Origin: Actinomycetota bacterium
GTDB lineage: Bacteria > Actinomycetota > Acidimicrobiia > Acidimicrobiales > CADCSY01
Direction: 5' to 3'
DNA length: 35,335 bases
Assembly: GCA_004366205.1 (NCBI GenBank)
Contig: SIRW01000014.1
Coordinates: 1-35,335 of the forward strand
In this document: positions 7,987 through 28,982 of the stretch, piece by piece
How positions within the stretch are numbered: the stretch's first letter is position 1
Layout: every line of letters starts with the position of its first letter
Notes under the pieces: model-generated
The model's database searches: none
What the model was told of the DNA's origin: nothing
What the model saw: only the letters and a program-made list of their open reading frames with translations
Translations under genes and position numbers: made by a program

Positions 7987-8071
7987 GGAGGGATGGCCGA
8001 GCGGACGATGGCGGGGGTCTTGAAAACCTCTGAGGCGCAAGCCTCCGTGGGTTCGAATCCCACTCCCTCCG
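7987..8071 (+). tRNA. tRNA-Ser(UGA)
   Basis: Complete class II cloverleaf. Acceptor arms GGAGGGA (7987-7993) and TCCCTCC (8064-8070) pair, with discriminator G. The anticodon loop CTTGAAA gives UGA and reads UCA codons. A long variable arm (GAGGC-GCAA-GCCTC) and T-arm GTGGG-TTCGAAT-CCCAC are present. CCA is not encoded. It starts 12 nt after pheA. Confidence 0.97.
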
Positions 8072-8174
8072 CTCCTCGTCCTCTCGCTGTCGTGGCCCGA
8101 ATCTGTGACACACCCGGCGGGTAGCCTCCGGACCGCTTCCCCCTCCGTTGCCAACCCCCCGTCCGGAGGGCACC

Positions 8175-8557: not shown

Positions 8558-8651
8558 GGAGAGGTGCCGGAGTCTGGTTGATCGGGGCGCCCTGCTAAGG
8601 CGTTGACGGGTGCAAACCCGTCCGTGGGTTCAAATCCCACCCTCTCCGCCA
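8558..8651 (+). tRNA. tRNA-Ser(GCU), with encoded CCA
   Basis: Acceptor arms GGAGAGG (8558-8564) and CCTCTCC (8641-8647), discriminator G, then CCA at 8649-8651. The anticodon loop CTGCTAA gives GCU (AGC/AGU codons). Long variable arm present (ACGGG-TGCAAA-CCCGT). The 3' part (from 8623) is repeated at 12096 and is the attachment site of the element that follows. Confidence 0.96.
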
Positions 8652-22130: not shown

Positions 22131-22931
22131 TCAGCCGGTCGGGCCGGCGGCGGCGCCGGCGAGGAACACGGCACGCAACAGGTCGCGGCGGCCGCGGAGC
22201 TCGGCGGCAGGGCCCTCGAAGCGGACCCGGCCCCGCTCCAGGAAGTACGCCCGGTCGGCGAAGGACAGGGCGAGGTCGACGTGCTGCTCGACCACGACCA
22301 CGCCGACGCCGGCGGTGCGCAGCGAGGCCACCACCTCGAGCAGCTCGCCGACCACGACGGGGGCGAGCCCGAGCGACAGCTCGTCGACGAGCAGGATGCG
22401 GGGCCGGCACACCAGCGCCCGGGCGAGGGCCAGCATCTGCTGCTGGCCGCCCGACAGCGTGCCCGCCAGCTGGTCGCGGCGCTCGGCGAGCCACGGGAAC
22501 CGGTCGATCACCTCGGCGGTGCGCGCCTCGCGCTCGCTCCGGGGCACGGTCAGGGCCCCCACGGTGAGGCTCTCGGCGACGGTGAGTCCCGGGAAGGTGG
22601 CGCGCCCGCCCGGTACCTGGAGCACGCCGCGGCGCACGATCTCGGGGGGCCGCAGCCGGGTGAGGTCCTCGCCGGCCAGGGCGAGGCTGCCGGCGATCGG
22701 CCGCACCAGGCCCGAGATCGTCCGCAGCAGCGTCGACTTGCCGGCCCCGTTGGTGCCCAGCAGGGCGACGACCTCCCCCGGCACCACCCGGAACGACACG
22801 TCCTCGAGCACCGTCACCTTGCCGTACGCGACCCGCAGGTCTTCGGCGACGAGCGCGCCCGAGGCGGCGGCCCTGGCCGGGTCCTGTGCCCGGTCGTGCG
22901 TGCCGCCGCGGCCCGGTTCCGGCGCGGTCAC
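22131..22931 (-). CDS. livF: LivF-type ABC transporter ATP-binding protein
   Basis: 266 residues. Walker A GTNGAGKST (59-67), signature LSGGQQQ (159-165), Walker B ILLVDE (179-184) and the LivF-like LQVPGGRATFPGLTVAESL. Energises a branched-chain-amino-acid-type importer. The GTG overlaps the stop of the exported-protein gene upstream (GTGA). The other subunits are the three-domain fusion at 24781-27588 and the lipoprotein at 27585-28982. Convergent with the TetR gene, 19 bp apart. Confidence 0.92.
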   Translation of the reverse strand: MTAPEPGRGGTHDRAQDPARAAASGALVAEDLRVAYGKVTVLEDVSFRVVPGEVVALLGTNGAGKSTLLRTISGLVRPIAGSLALAGEDLTRLRPPEIVRRGVLQVPGGRATFPGLTVAESLTVGALTVPRSEREARTAEVIDRFPWLAERRDQLAGTLSGGQQQMLALARALVCRPRILLVDELSLGLAPVVVGELLEVVASLRTAGVGVVVVEQHVDLALSFADRAYFLERGRVRFEGPAAELRGRRDLLRAVFLAGAAAGPTG

Positions 22932-23422
22932 GGCGTGACCTCCGCCACCGGCGGGCCGTCGCCCGCCAGCGCCCGGACGCCGGCCACCCCGATCAGACCC
23001 TCCCGGGCGGCGACGTAGGTGCCGTCGCGAGCGGGGGGTACCTCGTCGCGGGTGCCGTCCTCCCAGCGCACCAGCACCACCTCGGCACCCGGCACCCGCC
23101 CGTACACGGCGGTGACGGGTGGCACCGGCCCGGCGCCGGGCGTGGCCGAGACGGCGGCGACGGTCGCGACCGGCACCGGGTCGAGGTCGACGCCGTGCCA
23201 GCCCCGCCGGCCCGGGAAGGCGATCACGGTGAGCAGGCGCCCCTCGTGCACGGCGACCAGCACCTCGAGGTCGCCGACCGTGTGGCTGGCGGCCAGCCGG
23301 GCGCCCTCGGGCAGCGTCCCGGCCGGCTGGGCGGCGCCGGCGGGGATGCTGAGCACGGCGGCGACGGCCACGACGAGCGCCAGGGCGGCGGAGGCGCTGC
23401 ACCAGCGGGCGGCGGGGCTCAT
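22928..23422 (-). CDS. Exported or membrane-anchored protein of unknown function in a Liv operon
   Basis: 164 residues from an ATG 3 nt past the stop of the upstream gene. A strong hydrophobic segment (about 8-30) forms a signal/anchor. The rest looks like a small beta-rich extracytoplasmic domain with segments such as HTVGDLEVLVAVHEGRLLTV and VVLVRWEDGTRDEVP, ending in Pro/Ala. No family recognised. Translational coupling to livF on one side and tight spacing on the other argue for a role with the transporter. Confidence 0.7.
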   Translation of the reverse strand: MSPAARWCSASAALALVVAVAAVLSIPAGAAQPAGTLPEGARLAASHTVGDLEVLVAVHEGRLLTVIAFPGRRGWHGVDLDPVPVATVAAVSATPGAGPVPPVTAVYGRVPGAEVVLVRWEDGTRDEVPPARDGTYVAAREGLIGVAGVRALAGDGPPVAEVTP

Positions 23423-23425
23423 CGG

Positions 23426-24784
23426 TCACCCACGGAGGTACCGCTCCGCGGCCTCGTCCCACCCCGCCTGCACCCGACGCCGGACAGGCAGCAGGGGCGG
23501 CACGGTCGACAGGCGCTCCAGCGCCATGAGCGCCAGACCGGCGACGAGCACGACGAGCCACCACGGGCCCATGGCGGGCAGCGCCCGCCGGGTCACCACC
23601 GGATCGACCAGCCCGACGGCGCCGGGACCGGCCGCCACGGGCGCGGCCGGGGCGGGGGCGGCGGCCCCACCCGGCGTGGTACCGCCGGACCGGGGGGGCA
23701 CGCCCGCCGGGCCCGGGACGGCACCCGCCGGCGCCGGTGGCGCGGCAGCGGGTACGGGGGCGTCGGGGACCAGGTCGGCCACGGCCTCGCCGAGCAGCAT
23801 GTCGATCTCGCCGCCGACCAGCGTCGCGGCCACGAAGTAGCGCTCGGCGGGGTCGTCGCTGCTGGCGAACCGCACGTGGACGCCGCCGCCCCGCACCGTG
23901 ACCCGGTCGCCCTCGGGGGACACCTCGACCCGGGGCTGGCTGACCCGCACGTCGCTGTACGGGCTGTCGAGCCACTCGGCGAGGAGCGCCGTCGCCTGGG
24001 GGACGAGCGGCGCCGGGACCCGGCTGTCGTCGACGGTCAGGCCGTCGGGCCCGACCGCAACGGGCACGCCGTTCGCCTCGGCGCCGGCGACGTCGACCGT
24101 GGCGTCCACCTCGGTCCCGTCCGCGGTGCCGTCGGCGGCGACGATCGCCCGGTAGCGGGCGCTGCTCGCCCGGAACGGCCCGGCCCGCAGCCCCGACACC
24201 TCGGCCTCGACCCGGACCCGCACGACCGCGCCGCGGGCGTCGACCTCGACGTGGGAGCGGGCGGTGCCGGCGAGCCCACCGGCCGCGCCCCCGTCGACGG
24301 GCGTGGACGCCTCGGCGGTCCCGGCGAGGTGGTCGCAGCGCACGGCCAGGTGCACGGGCCCGGCGGTGCGCTCGGCCTCGGTGTCCAGGTTGGCGGCCAC
24401 GGTGTCGCAGCTGACGTAGCTCTCCTCGGGGGGCTGCTGGAACCCCTCGGCGAACCCCATGTCGAACACCGACGCCCGCCCGAACGTGGCTGGGGGCGGC
24501 GAGGCGACCGCCACCTCGGCGGCCGCGGGGCGCATGGCGAGCGACGTCTGCTGCTGGCCGGGGTCGGGTTGGGCCGGCCACGCTCGGGCGTGCACGTTCA
24601 GCACCCGCTCGCCCTCCGGTGCCTGGGCGTGCCCGGTGGGGGGCGAGCTGCTGAGGGCGGCCACGACCAGCGCGACCAGCAGCCCGCCGGGCAGCGTCCC
24701 CCGCCGCGTTCGCCCGCGGGGGCCGGCGCCCCGGGTCCCGGGCCCCCTGCGGTACCTCGCCGCCGCGGGGCCGTCTCGCGTCAC
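23426..24784 (-). CDS. Large exported protein with C-terminal membrane anchor, unknown function
   Basis: 452 residues from a GTG that overlaps the stop of the Liv fusion gene (GTGA). Arg-rich N-terminus, signal segment about 33-47, then an extracytoplasmic region of about 300 residues rich in Val/Thr/Asp, with two cysteines (SYVSCDTVAANL, LAVRCDHLAG) that may pair. A Pro/Ala/Gly stalk (about 340-400) leads to one membrane helix (MGPWWLVVLVAGLALMALE, from about 405) and a basic cytoplasmic tail. The topology is that of a wall-spanning surface receptor or adhesion protein. Unusual to find in the middle of a Liv operon; possibly a substrate-capture or docking component. Confidence 0.75.
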   Translation of the reverse strand: MTRDGPAAARYRRGPGTRGAGPRGRTRRGTLPGGLLVALVVAALSSSPPTGHAQAPEGERVLNVHARAWPAQPDPGQQQTSLAMRPAAAEVAVASPPPATFGRASVFDMGFAEGFQQPPEESYVSCDTVAANLDTEAERTAGPVHLAVRCDHLAGTAEASTPVDGGAAGGLAGTARSHVEVDARGAVVRVRVEAEVSGLRAGPFRASSARYRAIVAADGTADGTEVDATVDVAGAEANGVPVAVGPDGLTVDDSRVPAPLVPQATALLAEWLDSPYSDVRVSQPRVEVSPEGDRVTVRGGGVHVRFASSDDPAERYFVAATLVGGEIDMLLGEAVADLVPDAPVPAAAPPAPAGAVPGPAGVPPRSGGTTPGGAAAPAPAAPVAAGPGAVGLVDPVVTRRALPAMGPWWLVVLVAGLALMALERLSTVPPLLPVRRRVQAGWDEAAERYLRG

Positions 24785-27588
24785 CGCGCCGCCTCCGCCG
24801 GTGCGCCCGCCGTGGCCGCCCCGGCGCCGGCGGGGGTGCCGCCGCCGAGGTAGGCGTCGACCACGGCGGGGTCGGCGAGCACCGCCTCGGGGTCGCCGCT
24901 CGCCAGCACCCGGCCCAGGTCGAGGGCGACCAGGCGGTCGGCGAGGCCGGCCACGAACGGCACGTCGTGGTCGACCAGGACGACGGCGGCGTCGCCCCGG
25001 ATGCGCTCGATGAGGCCGCCGAGCGCCGCCACCTCGCTCTGCTGGAGGCCGGACGCGGGCTCGTCCAGCAGCAGGACCCGGGGCTGTCGGGCGGCGAGCC
25101 ACGCCAGCTCGAGGGCGCGGGTCGAGCCGAACGAGAGCGTCGCCACCCGGTGGTCCAGGTAGCGGTGCAGGTCGACGACGCCGAGCACCTCCTCGGCGGC
25201 GGCGACGACCGCCCGCTCCTCGGCCACGGCGTTGGGGAGGGCGAGCCCCTCGGCCACGATCCCGCTCGAGAACCGGGGGTGGAACGCGCCGAGCAGCACC
25301 TCGCGCACGGTCATCGACGGGAAGAGCCGGGGGTCCTGGAACGAGCGGGCGAGGCCCTGGCGGGCGCGGCGGTAGGGGTGCAGCCGGGTGATGTCGCGCC
25401 CGTCGAGGAGCACCCGGCCGGCGGCCGGCGCCGTGAAGCCGGACAGCACGTCGAGCAGCGTCGTCTTGCCGGCGCCGTTGGCGCCGATGAGCCCGACGAT
25501 CTCGCCGGGCGCGACGGCCAGGTCCACGTCGTCGAGGGCGACCACGCCGTCGAAGCGCACCCGCACGCGCTCGGCGGCGATCGCGGCCCGGGGGCGTGGG
25601 GCGGCGGCTCGCGGCCGGGGGGCGAGGGCTCCGGCGCCGACGGCGCCCGGGGCGTCGTCGGTCACGGGGTCGACGCTCGTGCGGTCAGCGGCGACCCCCT
25701 CGGCGTCGCTGGCCGGCGCCGGCCGGGGTGGGGCGAGCCGGCGCAGGGTGCGGGTGGCGATGCCGACCAGGCCGTCGGGGTCGCGCACCAGCACCAGCAC
25801 GATGCCCGCGCCCAGGGCGACGGCCGTCCAGTCCGACACGGTGCCCTCACCCCGGAACACCTCGGTGAGGAACACGAAGGCGAACGCGCCGATCACCGGG
25901 CCGAGCGGCGAGCGCAGCCCACCCACGAGCGTGAGCCCGAACGCCGACAGCGACAGCACCAGGAACCCGAACGCCCCGGCGGAGAACGTCTCGAGCAGGT
26001 AGGCGAACAGCACCCCGGCCACGCCGGCGTACACGGCGTGGAGCGTGAACGCGACCAGCCGGTACTTGGTGGGGTTGGCCCCGGCGGCGGCCGCCGCCTT
26101 CGGGTTGTCGCGCACCATGGCGAGGGCCCGCCCGGTGCGGGACCGGCCCAGCGCGGCGGTGAAGGCGAACAGCGCGGCGGCGACGAGGGCGCACAGCACG
26201 GCGAAGGCCCGGTCGCCGGCGACGAGGTCGGGGCGGGTGAGGCTCATGGCCTCGCCGGCGTTGGCGAACCAGCGCTGGCGGAACAGCGTCTCCTCGAAGA
26301 GCCCGGCCAGCGCGATCGTCGCCACCGCCAGGTACAGCGGCCGGAGCCGCAGCGCCACCACCCCCACGGCCGCGCACAGCACGACCGTGGCGCCACCGGC
26401 GAGCGGCAGCACCAGCGGCAGGGGCAGGCCCAGCCGGCCCCCCAGGATCCACGCCAGGCAGGCGCCCACCCCGGCGAACGTCCCGGGCATGAGCGACACC
26501 TGCCCCGACCAGCCGGTCAGCACGACGATCGACAGGCCGAGGAGCGCGAACACCATCGTGCGGGCCGACACGAAGGCCCAGAAGCCCGACAGGCCGAGGG
26601 TGACGACGGCGGCGACCCCGAACCCGGCCAGCCACCACCGGGCCCGGCCCAGCGGCACCGAGCCGGGGGCGGCGCGCAGGCCCCGGTCGGCGTCCTCCAG
26701 GGCCCGGGCCTCCTGGTCCGACACGAAGAACCGCTCCACCCGCAGCACCAGCAGCATCACGACCAGCAGGGCCGCCAGCGCGCCGGCGAGGCCGGGAAGC
26801 GGGCCGGGCCCGCCCGCGAGCAGTTCCTGGGCGACGCCGAGGCCCAGGCCGCCGCCCAGCGACGCCGGCAGGCTGACGAACCCACCGGTCAGTCCCGCCG
26901 CCAGCGCCTTCAGCTGGAAGCCCATGAGGCTCAGCGGGTTGAGGGTCCCGAACGGCACGACCAGCACCCCGGCCAGGGCGGCCGACGCGCCCGCCAGCGC
27001 CCACACCCGGGTCTGCACGGCGCGGTCGTCGACGCCGGCCAGGCGCGCCGCCAGCGGGTTCTGGGCGAGCGCCCGCACCTGCATCCCGAAGGTGGTCCGG
27101 TGCAGCAGCCACGTGAGGGCCAGGGTGGCGCCCACCCCGCACACGATCAGCGCCACGTGCTGGTGCGTGACCCGGACGCCGGCGAGGCCGACCGTGCGGT
27201 CCAGGGGGAGCAGCGTCCGGGCGGTCGACGGCGTGCCCAGCCCGGTCCAGACCAGCCCGATGACCCCCTGCACCACGCCCGCGACCCCGAAGGACGCGAG
27301 CAGCTTGGTCACCTGCGAGGCGTGCTCCAGCGGCACGAAGGCGAGGCGGTGCACGAGCACGCCCGTCCCCGCGCCCGTGGCCAGGGCGGCGAGCAGGGCC
27401 CCACCCACGGGCAGCGCGTCGAAGCGGCCGAGCAGCTCGAAGTTGACGTAGGTGGCGAGCACCCCGGTCGAGGCGTGGGCGAAGTTGAGGACCCCGCTCG
27501 CCCGGTAGGTGAGCACGATGCCGACGGCGAGCAGGGCGAACATGGCGCCCACGGCCAGGCCGAGCACGAGGTACTGCAGGACGGTCAC
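24781..27588 (-). CDS. LivH-LivM-LivG fusion: two permease domains and one ATPase in one chain
   Basis: 935 residues. Residues 1-285 are a LivH-type permease (start VLQYLVLGLAVGAMFALLAVG, GVLNFAH, LAGVLVVPFG). Residues 315-605 are a LivM-type permease (TGWSGQVSLMPGTFAGVGA, LGRSRTGRALAMVRDNPKAA, GGLRSPLGPVIGA). A disordered linker spans about 612-668. Residues 670-915 are a LivG-type ATPase with Walker A GANGAGKTT (702-710), signature LSFGSTRALELA (818-829) and Walker B VLLLDEP (838-844). LivH/M/G are usually separate; LivHM or LivMG pairs are sometimes fused. The GTG overlaps the stop of the solute-binding protein gene. The frame stays open throughout with conserved motifs in each part, so the fusion is not an artefact of a missed stop. 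Confidence 0.92.
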   Translation of the reverse strand: MTVLQYLVLGLAVGAMFALLAVGIVLTYRASGVLNFAHASTGVLATYVNFELLGRFDALPVGGALLAALATGAGTGVLVHRLAFVPLEHASQVTKLLASFGVAGVVQGVIGLVWTGLGTPSTARTLLPLDRTVGLAGVRVTHQHVALIVCGVGATLALTWLLHRTTFGMQVRALAQNPLAARLAGVDDRAVQTRVWALAGASAALAGVLVVPFGTLNPLSLMGFQLKALAAGLTGGFVSLPASLGGGLGLGVAQELLAGGPGPLPGLAGALAALLVVMLLVLRVERFFVSDQEARALEDADRGLRAAPGSVPLGRARWWLAGFGVAAVVTLGLSGFWAFVSARTMVFALLGLSIVVLTGWSGQVSLMPGTFAGVGACLAWILGGRLGLPLPLVLPLAGGATVVLCAAVGVVALRLRPLYLAVATIALAGLFEETLFRQRWFANAGEAMSLTRPDLVAGDRAFAVLCALVAAALFAFTAALGRSRTGRALAMVRDNPKAAAAAGANPTKYRLVAFTLHAVYAGVAGVLFAYLLETFSAGAFGFLVLSLSAFGLTLVGGLRSPLGPVIGAFAFVFLTEVFRGEGTVSDWTAVALGAGIVLVLVRDPDGLVGIATRTLRRLAPPRPAPASDAEGVAADRTSVDPVTDDAPGAVGAGALAPRPRAAAPRPRAAIAAERVRVRFDGVVALDDVDLAVAPGEIVGLIGANGAGKTTLLDVLSGFTAPAAGRVLLDGRDITRLHPYRRARQGLARSFQDPRLFPSMTVREVLLGAFHPRFSSGIVAEGLALPNAVAEERAVVAAAEEVLGVVDLHRYLDHRVATLSFGSTRALELAWLAARQPRVLLLDEPASGLQQSEVAALGGLIERIRGDAAVVLVDHDVPFVAGLADRLVALDLGRVLASGDPEAVLADPAVVDAYLGGGTPAGAGAATAGAPAEAAR

Positions 27589-28982
27589 GGGTCGATGTAG
27601 CCGAAGTTCAGCGGCTCGCTGGCCCGCACGTAGCGACCGTCCCGCAGCTGCAGCAGCACGGTGGCGGTGCCGCCCATGTGCCGGTCGGGTGAGAACGTGA
27701 GCGGCGCGGTGGTCCCCAGGTCGAGGCCGCGGATCGACTCGATCTCGGCCAGGAACGCCTCGTTGTCGGGCCCGGTGCGGGCCAGCACCTCGGCGAGCAG
27801 CTGCATGCCCGCCCACGCCGCCAGCTCGTGGCCGGTGCGGGCGCCCTGCGGGTAGCGGCGGTCCATCACCGCGTGGAACTCGGCCATCTGCGGTGAGTCG
27901 CGGTCGATGTAGGACAGCCCGGCGGTGTCGGTGAACACGAGCCGGTCGCACACCCGACCGCACGCGTCCTCCAGCAGCCGGCTCCACGCTGCCGGGGCGT
28001 ACCAGGGCACCTGCCAGGCCTGGCGGTTCGCCGACATGCGCCCGAAGGCGAGGAGCACGGGGTTGGTGGCGACCACCGCCTGGGCCCCGGCGGTGCGCAT
28101 GCGGGTGATGGCCCCGTCCATGCCGGTGACGGCGTCCTCTTCGGCGCGCACCGGCTCCTCCCGCACGACCTCGATGCCGTAGCGGGCCAGCTCCTCGCGC
28201 AGCCGGGGGATGCCGCTGGCCTCGGCCGGCACGTTCAGGTAGGTGAGCCCGATGCGGTCGACGCCCATGTAGCGCACGACCACCTCCGGCACGAAGCGTC
28301 CGTAGAACGCGCCGGGCACGGCGGTCACGAACGTCACGGGCGACAGGGCGTCGGTCGTCATGTTGTGCGCCCCGCCCTGGATCAGCGGCACCCGCCGCTC
28401 GTCGAGGTAGCTGATCACCGGCATGAAGGCGATGACCATCACGTAGGTGTTGACGACGGCGAACACGCCGTCCTGCTCGACCAGGCGGCGGACGGCCTGC
28501 AGGGCCTCGTCCTGGCAGGTGAGGCAGGCGTTGTAGGCGACGAGCTCGAGGCGGGCGCCGCCGATGCCGCCCCGGGCGTTCACCTCGTCGACGAAGGCCT
28601 GGGTGACCCGCAGGATGGGCTCGCCGAACTCCCGCTGACCCCCCACCAGCGGCAGCACGCTCCCGATGCGCACCACTCCGCCCGGCCGGCCGGCGGCCGG
28701 GGCTCCCCGCCCGTCGCCGGCGGCGGCACCGGGCCGGCCGCCGCCCACGGGCGCCCCCGCGCCGGTGTCGCCGTCCTGGCCGGGGCGGCCCGCCGGGGGG
28801 AGGAGGCCGCCCGCGGCCAGCTCCTCGCTGGGGTCGGGGTCGTCGTAGGCGCCGGCGCCGGCGGTTCCGGTGGCCGTGCGCGTCTCGAAGGCGATCTCCT
28901 CGCCAGCTCCGCAGGCGGCGGCGACGAGCGCGAGGGCGGCGAGCACCGTGCCCGCTCGGACCCCCCGGCGTCGGACGGCCAT
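27585..28982 (-). CDS. Solute-binding lipoprotein of a Liv-type ABC importer
   Basis: 465 residues. Signal peptide with lipobox ALVAAAC; Cys24 is the likely lipidated residue. A long Gly/Pro/Ala linker (about 30-100) precedes a type I periplasmic-binding fold (VRIGSVLPLVGGQREFGEPI, AFVDEVNARGGIGG). The fold contains a Cys pair in NACLTCQDEALQ and another in DACGRVCDRLVF. ATG start preceded by AGGAGGGGG. First gene of the transporter operon; a putative TetR operator lies 53 bp upstream. Liv-type systems import amino acids, amides, urea or aromatic/aliphatic acids; the substrate is unknown, but shared control with oxidation genes points to a carbon source. Confidence 0.88.
   Translation of the reverse strand: MAVRRRGVRAGTVLAALALVAAACGAGEEIAFETRTATGTAGAGAYDDPDPSEELAAGGLLPPAGRPGQDGDTGAGAPVGGGRPGAAAGDGRGAPAAGRPGGVVRIGSVLPLVGGQREFGEPILRVTQAFVDEVNARGGIGGARLELVAYNACLTCQDEALQAVRRLVEQDGVFAVVNTYVMVIAFMPVISYLDERRVPLIQGGAHNMTTDALSPVTFVTAVPGAFYGRFVPEVVVRYMGVDRIGLTYLNVPAEASGIPRLREELARYGIEVVREEPVRAEEDAVTGMDGAITRMRTAGAQAVVATNPVLLAFGRMSANRQAWQVPWYAPAAWSRLLEDACGRVCDRLVFTDTAGLSYIDRDSPQMAEFHAVMDRRYPQGARTGHELAAWAGMQLLAEVLARTGPDNEAFLAEIESIRGLDLGTTAPLTFSPDRHMGGTATVLLQLRDGRYVRASEPLNFGYIDP

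Follow-up and report, generated by a model that had tools for sequence, protein, structure and literature searches.

Importers of the Liv/HAAT type (LivKHMGF) combine a solute-binding protein (SBP), two permease domains, and two ATPases in a single operon. Sortase-anchored proteins of the LPXTG type carry that motif, a transmembrane (TM) segment, and a short basic tail. In the Isd system, anchored surface proteins with NEAT domains and sortase anchoring pass ligand to an ABC importer. An excerpt of PMC10147376 deals with this cell-wall relay of Staphylococcus, and an excerpt of PMC5487216 with LucA (Rv3723), a membrane accessory protein that occurs with Mce importers in mycobacteria. The titles and abstract openings returned by a literature search contained no description of the protein family reported here.

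The window analyzed (35,335 nucleotides, the whole of contig G000:C14 of the host genome) encodes an importer of the Liv/HAAT type on the minus strand, in the order SBP, LivH-LivM-LivG fusion, P1, P2, and LivF. Pfam searches identified a Peripla_BP_6 SBP, a pair of BPD_transp_2 domains, and a pair of ABC_tran domains within the one operon. The operon differs from LivKHMGF in adding a type I surface protein (P1) and in having neighbors that are catabolic rather than related to amino acids. Its features are as follows.

27585..28982, minus strand: SBP (Peripla_BP_6, E = 3.2e-38), carrying a lipobox-like ALVAAAC and an extended linker of low complexity
24781..27588, minus strand: LivH-LivM-LivG fusion (two BPD_transp_2 stretches, ABC_tran, and BCA_ABC_TP_C; Pfam)
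23426..24784, minus strand: P1, 452 amino acids, GTG start, from the open reading frame and its translation (family HMM, E = 4.3e-10)
24626..24784, minus strand: N-terminus of P1, hydrophobic at residues 29–47 (hydropathy), a probable signal peptide
23855..24292, minus strand: core of P1, approximately residues 165–310, the most alignable part of the family in alignments
23609..23761, minus strand: Pro/Ala/Gly-rich stalk of P1, approximately residues 342–392, read directly from the sequence
23519..23575, minus strand: C-terminal TM segment of P1, residues 404–422 (hydropathy)
22928..23422, minus strand: P2, 164 amino acids, ATG start, exported, in the slot held in many relatives by a small protein with two TM segments (2-TM partner)
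22131..22931, minus strand: LivF-type ATPase (PF00005, ABC_tran; E = 3.8e-31)

The genes are tightly packed. The fusion and P1 share a GTGA start/stop overlap (24784–24781), an overlap of the same type joins P2 and LivF (22931–22928), and 3 bp separate the P1 stop from the P2 start in the DNA. The flanking Liv genes were confirmed by Pfam, and the initial annotation was thus correct in placing P1 and P2 between the permease/ATPase fusion and LivF. The start of the fusion, GTG at 27588, is inferred; LivH, LivM, and LivG are joined in a single polypeptide of ~935 amino acids (24781–27588). In the SBP (27585–28982), a linker of ~75 low-complexity residues separates the folded domain from the cysteine of the lipobox-like ALVAAAC. 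Elsewhere in the window, two tRNA-Ser genes lie close together (7987–8072 and 8558–8651, anticodons TGA and GCT).

P1 has hydrophobic stretches at residues 29–47 and 404–422, and with the stalk visible in the sequence these bear out the signal-stalk-TM layout originally proposed for it. The motif ahead of the TM segment is LPAMG, followed by a tail of 30 residues, and P1 thus falls outside the LPXTG sortase-anchored proteins. Searches of Pfam, NCBIfam, and PDB gave zero matches to P1 at E ≤ 1; this includes NCBIfam choice_anch_P (NF040603; curated cut-off 27 bits), to which P1 does not belong. Two structure predictions had mean pLDDT values of 36.9 (a P1 relative) and 38.9 and were unusable for fold comparison, although strands appear in the core region of the low-confidence model of a P1 relative. 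The family profile described below produced chance matches only against PDB. For the core, a TULIP-like fold that binds lipid was considered and dropped for want of a usable model.

Searched against the host genome, the P1 sequence matched itself only. Among 298 genomes of the order, eight including the host were matched at E ≤ 0.01, and matches longer than 200 residues occurred in G259 and G220 only, both adjoining Liv genes. Five of the seven non-self matches (G252, G225, G273, G016, and G078; E = 0.001–0.009) were not accepted as relatives. Loci L021 and L025 have Liv-like ATPases without a permease, L022 has an ATPase plus a weakly matching SBP (E = 0.007), and L023 has nothing; at L024 only the stalk/TM end of P1 is matched, over 64 residues (E = 1.4e-4). 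When the G259 protein served as query against those 298 genomes, it recovered P1 at E = 2.7e-6 and added relatives in G197, in G114, and at two places in G001. All six places of these nearest relatives (G259, G220, G197, G114, and the two in G001) adjoin Liv genes, and at L019 the start of the P1 relative overlaps the end of LivF. Contig scans of the named genomes found nothing except L154, which is L043 again. These remote relatives ruled out P1 as a lone orphan.

The G001 relative at L043 scored 25.2 bits against choice_anch_P, just below its cut-off of 27. Over 148 genomes of the order, the choice_anch_P profile matched 31 at E ≤ 0.01, in about 74 distinct places. Of these, 61 were examined (60 at E ≤ 1.9e-4 plus L043) and the 13 weaker ones were left out. 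Places were divided by where the profile match ends, at position 147 or earlier (class A) or at 160 or beyond (class B); the contrast between them is descriptive because this boundary was set after the place table was known. LivH/M genes lie within 5 kb at 35 of the 41 class A places, 33 of these on the same strand. Two further class A places lack the permease but have a Liv-like ATPase within 1 kb; four have neither (L119, on a 3.2-kb contig, L134, L139, and L141). In class B, which holds the classical choice_anch_P places and serves as the control, 1 of 20 places has a permease, three have an ATPase only, and 16 have neither. As background, the zones within 5 kb of any BPD_transp_2 domain cover 6.9% of the host genome.

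We derived a family HMM from 38 sequences, namely L131 and 37 class A sequences out of the 41. Omission of L125, L134, L139, and L141 biases both this HMM and A3, another profile whose 34 rows were chosen for Liv linkage, toward Liv-linked members. The nearest group of P1 (L019, L020, L041, L042, and L044) is entirely absent from the HMM, which nevertheless matches P1 over positions 6–444 of 467, essentially full length, at E = 4.3e-10. The score was 45.5 bits, compared to −25.5 for the reversed sequence, −7.6 for the best of 1,000 full shuffles, and −1.0 for the best of 1,000 local shuffles. In profile-profile comparison, the P1 group (without L043) matched the family at 99.5% over 338 columns. 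Identity between P1 and the other 33 A3 rows is just 14%–25%. Most of the Liv-linked open reading frames have a hydrophobic stretch near each terminus, with a few cut by contig ends or given over-long starts. Judged from its sequence, P1 belongs, as a divergent member, to a Liv-linked family with a signal, a core of at least ~150 residues, a low-complexity stalk, and a C-terminal TM segment, and it has the family's N-terminal signal, stalk, single C-terminal TM segment, and location in a Liv operon.

The association extends beyond the order. A3 matched 21 of 346 genomes of the phylum at E ≤ 1e-5, in 36 non-host places (35 newly examined and G014:C7, which is L148). Outside the order, LivH/M lie within 5 kb at 19 of 23 strong places (E < 1e-15) and an ATPase within 1 kb at two more; the remaining two (L194 and L196), with neither gene, are on contigs of 6–7 kb. 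None of nine weak partial places outside the order is near LivH/M, and all three further places in the order are. Searching the host genome with the family profile located two more P1 relatives, on contigs C71 and C30, so that all three family members found there are inside Liv operons. Only four or five candidates were scored per genome in the P1, G259-protein, and A3 searches, and the prevalence of the family is therefore a lower bound. The P1 family tends to co-occur with Liv operons in related bacteria.

The family has no Pfam model and only borders choice_anch_P in NCBIfam; it appears to be uncatalogued. Some of its members match NF040603 over positions ~16–124 of 185, some relatives exceed 27 bits, and 24 of the 34 A3 members match at E ≤ 1. 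Ten classical choice_anch_P proteins matched the family at 86% in profile-profile comparison, over 80 columns only. Both groups are signal-bearing surface proteins; they differ in that the family's match usually ends mid-profile and in that classical members occur away from Liv permeases.

Co-divergence was measured at 64 of 72 family loci, those for which LivH and LivM were both found. Spearman correlations of family identity were 0.68 with LivH and 0.53 with LivM (0 of 2,000 permutations each). The value between LivM and LivH themselves is 0.68, equal to that between the family and LivH. When labels were shuffled within genomes, which keeps species relatedness, 0 of 1,000 shuffles reached the observed value. 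Family and LivH shared the same best partner in 607 of 977 cases, compared to a mean of 363 and a maximum of 483 in the within-genome shuffle; for LivM the count was 598 of 977. As a family, the P1 proteins diverge together with LivH/LivM; this holds at the family level, and for the window itself the nearest relatives by P1 and by LivH differ.

These results bear on whether P1 could instead have no role in transport and be a general surface or cell-wall protein that accompanies the operon by co-transcription. The family's distant resemblance to choice-of-anchor P surface proteins and its rapid divergence are consistent with such a protein, but location near LivH/LivM and co-divergence with them within genomes argue against it, as do the classical choice_anch_P places of the same search, which are not Liv-linked. 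We consider this explanation quite unlikely. Association of the family with Liv genes does not equal function; with that distinction, we find it reasonably likely that P1 serves the Liv-type ABC importer of its operon as a dedicated accessory protein.

The second, smaller exported protein seems to depart from this pattern. P2 has one hydrophobic stretch, at residues 8–26 (hydropathy). Its earlier description as anchored is uncertain, since P2 has no other such stretch and this one could be a signal peptide that is removed. Pfam returned nothing for P2 at E ≤ 1, and a lectin-domain assignment from NCBIfam was rejected (15.3 bits, cut-off 200). Its own-sequence search of the host genome returned itself only, with a second match at E = 0.47. 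Among 198 genomes of the order, 13 including the host were matched at E ≤ 0.01, and the one convincing homolog is at G001:C46 (39% identity, E = 6.8e-23). There (L220), the P2 relative adjoins an 11-TM protein that is NuoN-like by sequence reading, not by database match.

The initial annotation treated P1 and P2 as one capture apparatus spanning the cell wall, and named orthologs lying mostly outside transporter operons as the result that would count against it. The two proteins part ways on this point. P1 relatives are mostly in or beside Liv operons, and the accessory idea stands for P1 on its Liv location and the co-divergence of its family. For the pair it is unsupported, because the single clear relative of P2 is outside a transporter operon, and many P1 relatives have the 2-TM partner instead. 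P1 and P2 are adjacent, 3 bp apart, and both have N-terminal signals, as members of a joint apparatus might, but tblastn found no P2 beside the other P1 relatives examined, and the NuoN-like neighbor of its homolog points elsewhere. A joint capture apparatus is thus very unlikely, and P2 is probably a co-transcribed exported protein outside the conserved module.

Small partner genes of the P1 relatives were sought among 96 short same-strand neighbors of the 72 family loci. Thirty-three of these neighbors cluster as the 2-TM protein, usually encoded immediately downstream; it shows the pattern GWxGxxxx...QxPYxxSGG, and most copies also have HxxxC...CxxC at the C-terminus. Four members scanned with Pfam gave nothing above cut-off. 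An HMM for this partner found it in 41 of the 72 family loci, frequent but not defining for the family, and had no match in the window, where P2 occupies the slot. It occurs in 59 of 198 genomes of the order; at 30 partner loci (one per genome), a P1 relative adjoins in 21 and a LivF/G-like ATPase in seven of the other nine. The host genome's one copy (L047:6385–6897, G000:C21) is near a Liv operon, with no P1 relative found there. A second partner type, a cysteine ribbon with one TM segment, forms a cluster of six loci including L019, L020, and L041, and such genes directly follow P1 relatives at L019:7048–7383, L041:8263–8676, and L201:3206–3460. P1 in the window has neither partner type.

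Other exported proteins occur near Liv genes of the host. An exported protein of 540 amino acids with an LPATG-TM end (L048:9408–11027, G000:C104) abuts a Liv ATPase gene and is outside the P1 family by HMM. A protein of 315 amino acids with a signal and a C-terminal TM segment (L053:4460–5404, G000:C25) abuts Liv ATPases and has no family match, and a SpoIID-domain protein of the same layout (L045:5040–6815, G000:C95) is near a Liv locus.

The 2-TM partner raises the alternative that P1-family proteins are sensors, in which the outer core would bind substrate or loaded SBP, and the short cytoplasmic tail together with the HxxxC...CxxC partner would report to the ATPases or a regulator. The type I topology with a cytoplasmic tail, the putative metal-binding knuckle of this conserved partner, and the tails of many relatives, which end in a CP motif, are compatible with sensing. 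The window P1 lacks both the 2-TM partner and a CP tail, however, and Pfam detected no signaling domain in 34 members scanned. Sensing is accordingly unlikely, and we return to P1 as an accessory of import. It would lie on the outer membrane face beside LivHM and reach into the wall. More speculatively, it may bind substrate or keep the solute-binding lipoprotein near the permease; given an accessory role, we see the case for substrate capture as about evenly balanced.

Two described systems serve as working models. P1 resembles Isd as a surface protein that could relay to an importer, without membership in that system: Isd has NEAT domains and sortase anchoring, whereas P1 has neither a Pfam domain nor an LPXTG signal. 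LucA is likewise a membrane accessory, needed by importers of hydrophobic compounds; Mce importers are a different transporter class, and the likeness to P1 is one of working model.

The likely substrate was considered from gene context. Neighbors in the window include a Zn-alcohol dehydrogenase, a CMD-family protein, an aldehyde dehydrogenase, a TetR regulator, a GMC oxidoreductase, an alpha/beta hydrolase, and a thiolase-like protein under the Pfam cut-off. From 279 flanking genes of the family loci, 20 were drawn at random with a single gene taken per locus, and by our count, which has no genome-wide background control, 15 belong to families of carbon-compound metabolism, among them SDR, acyl-CoA synthetase, amidohydrolase, GMC, and enoyl-CoA hydratase. 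The SBP scored 19.3 bits against the LivK model (cut-off 477), which says little on branched-chain amino acid transport either way. Because alcohol and aldehyde dehydrogenases, the CMD-family protein, and the GMC oxidoreductase surround the operon, we take as a lead that the importer may serve a catabolized organic compound rather than branched-chain amino acids.

The host genome shows a strong expansion of Liv permeases (42 domain matches). The placement of the family beside Liv importers suggests that such importers often carry an extra outer part. As a tentative possibility, many actinomycetotal Liv-type importers may carry an uncatalogued module, composed of a type I surface protein and a 2-TM protein with a metal-knuckle-like tail, that would act as an extra station between SBP and permease for catabolic substrates that are hard to capture; the window would then hold a diverged version with another protein in place of the small partner. 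If P1 is a dedicated surface accessory, this would change the annotation of Liv operons and mark a subset of them with a possible unusual capture step.
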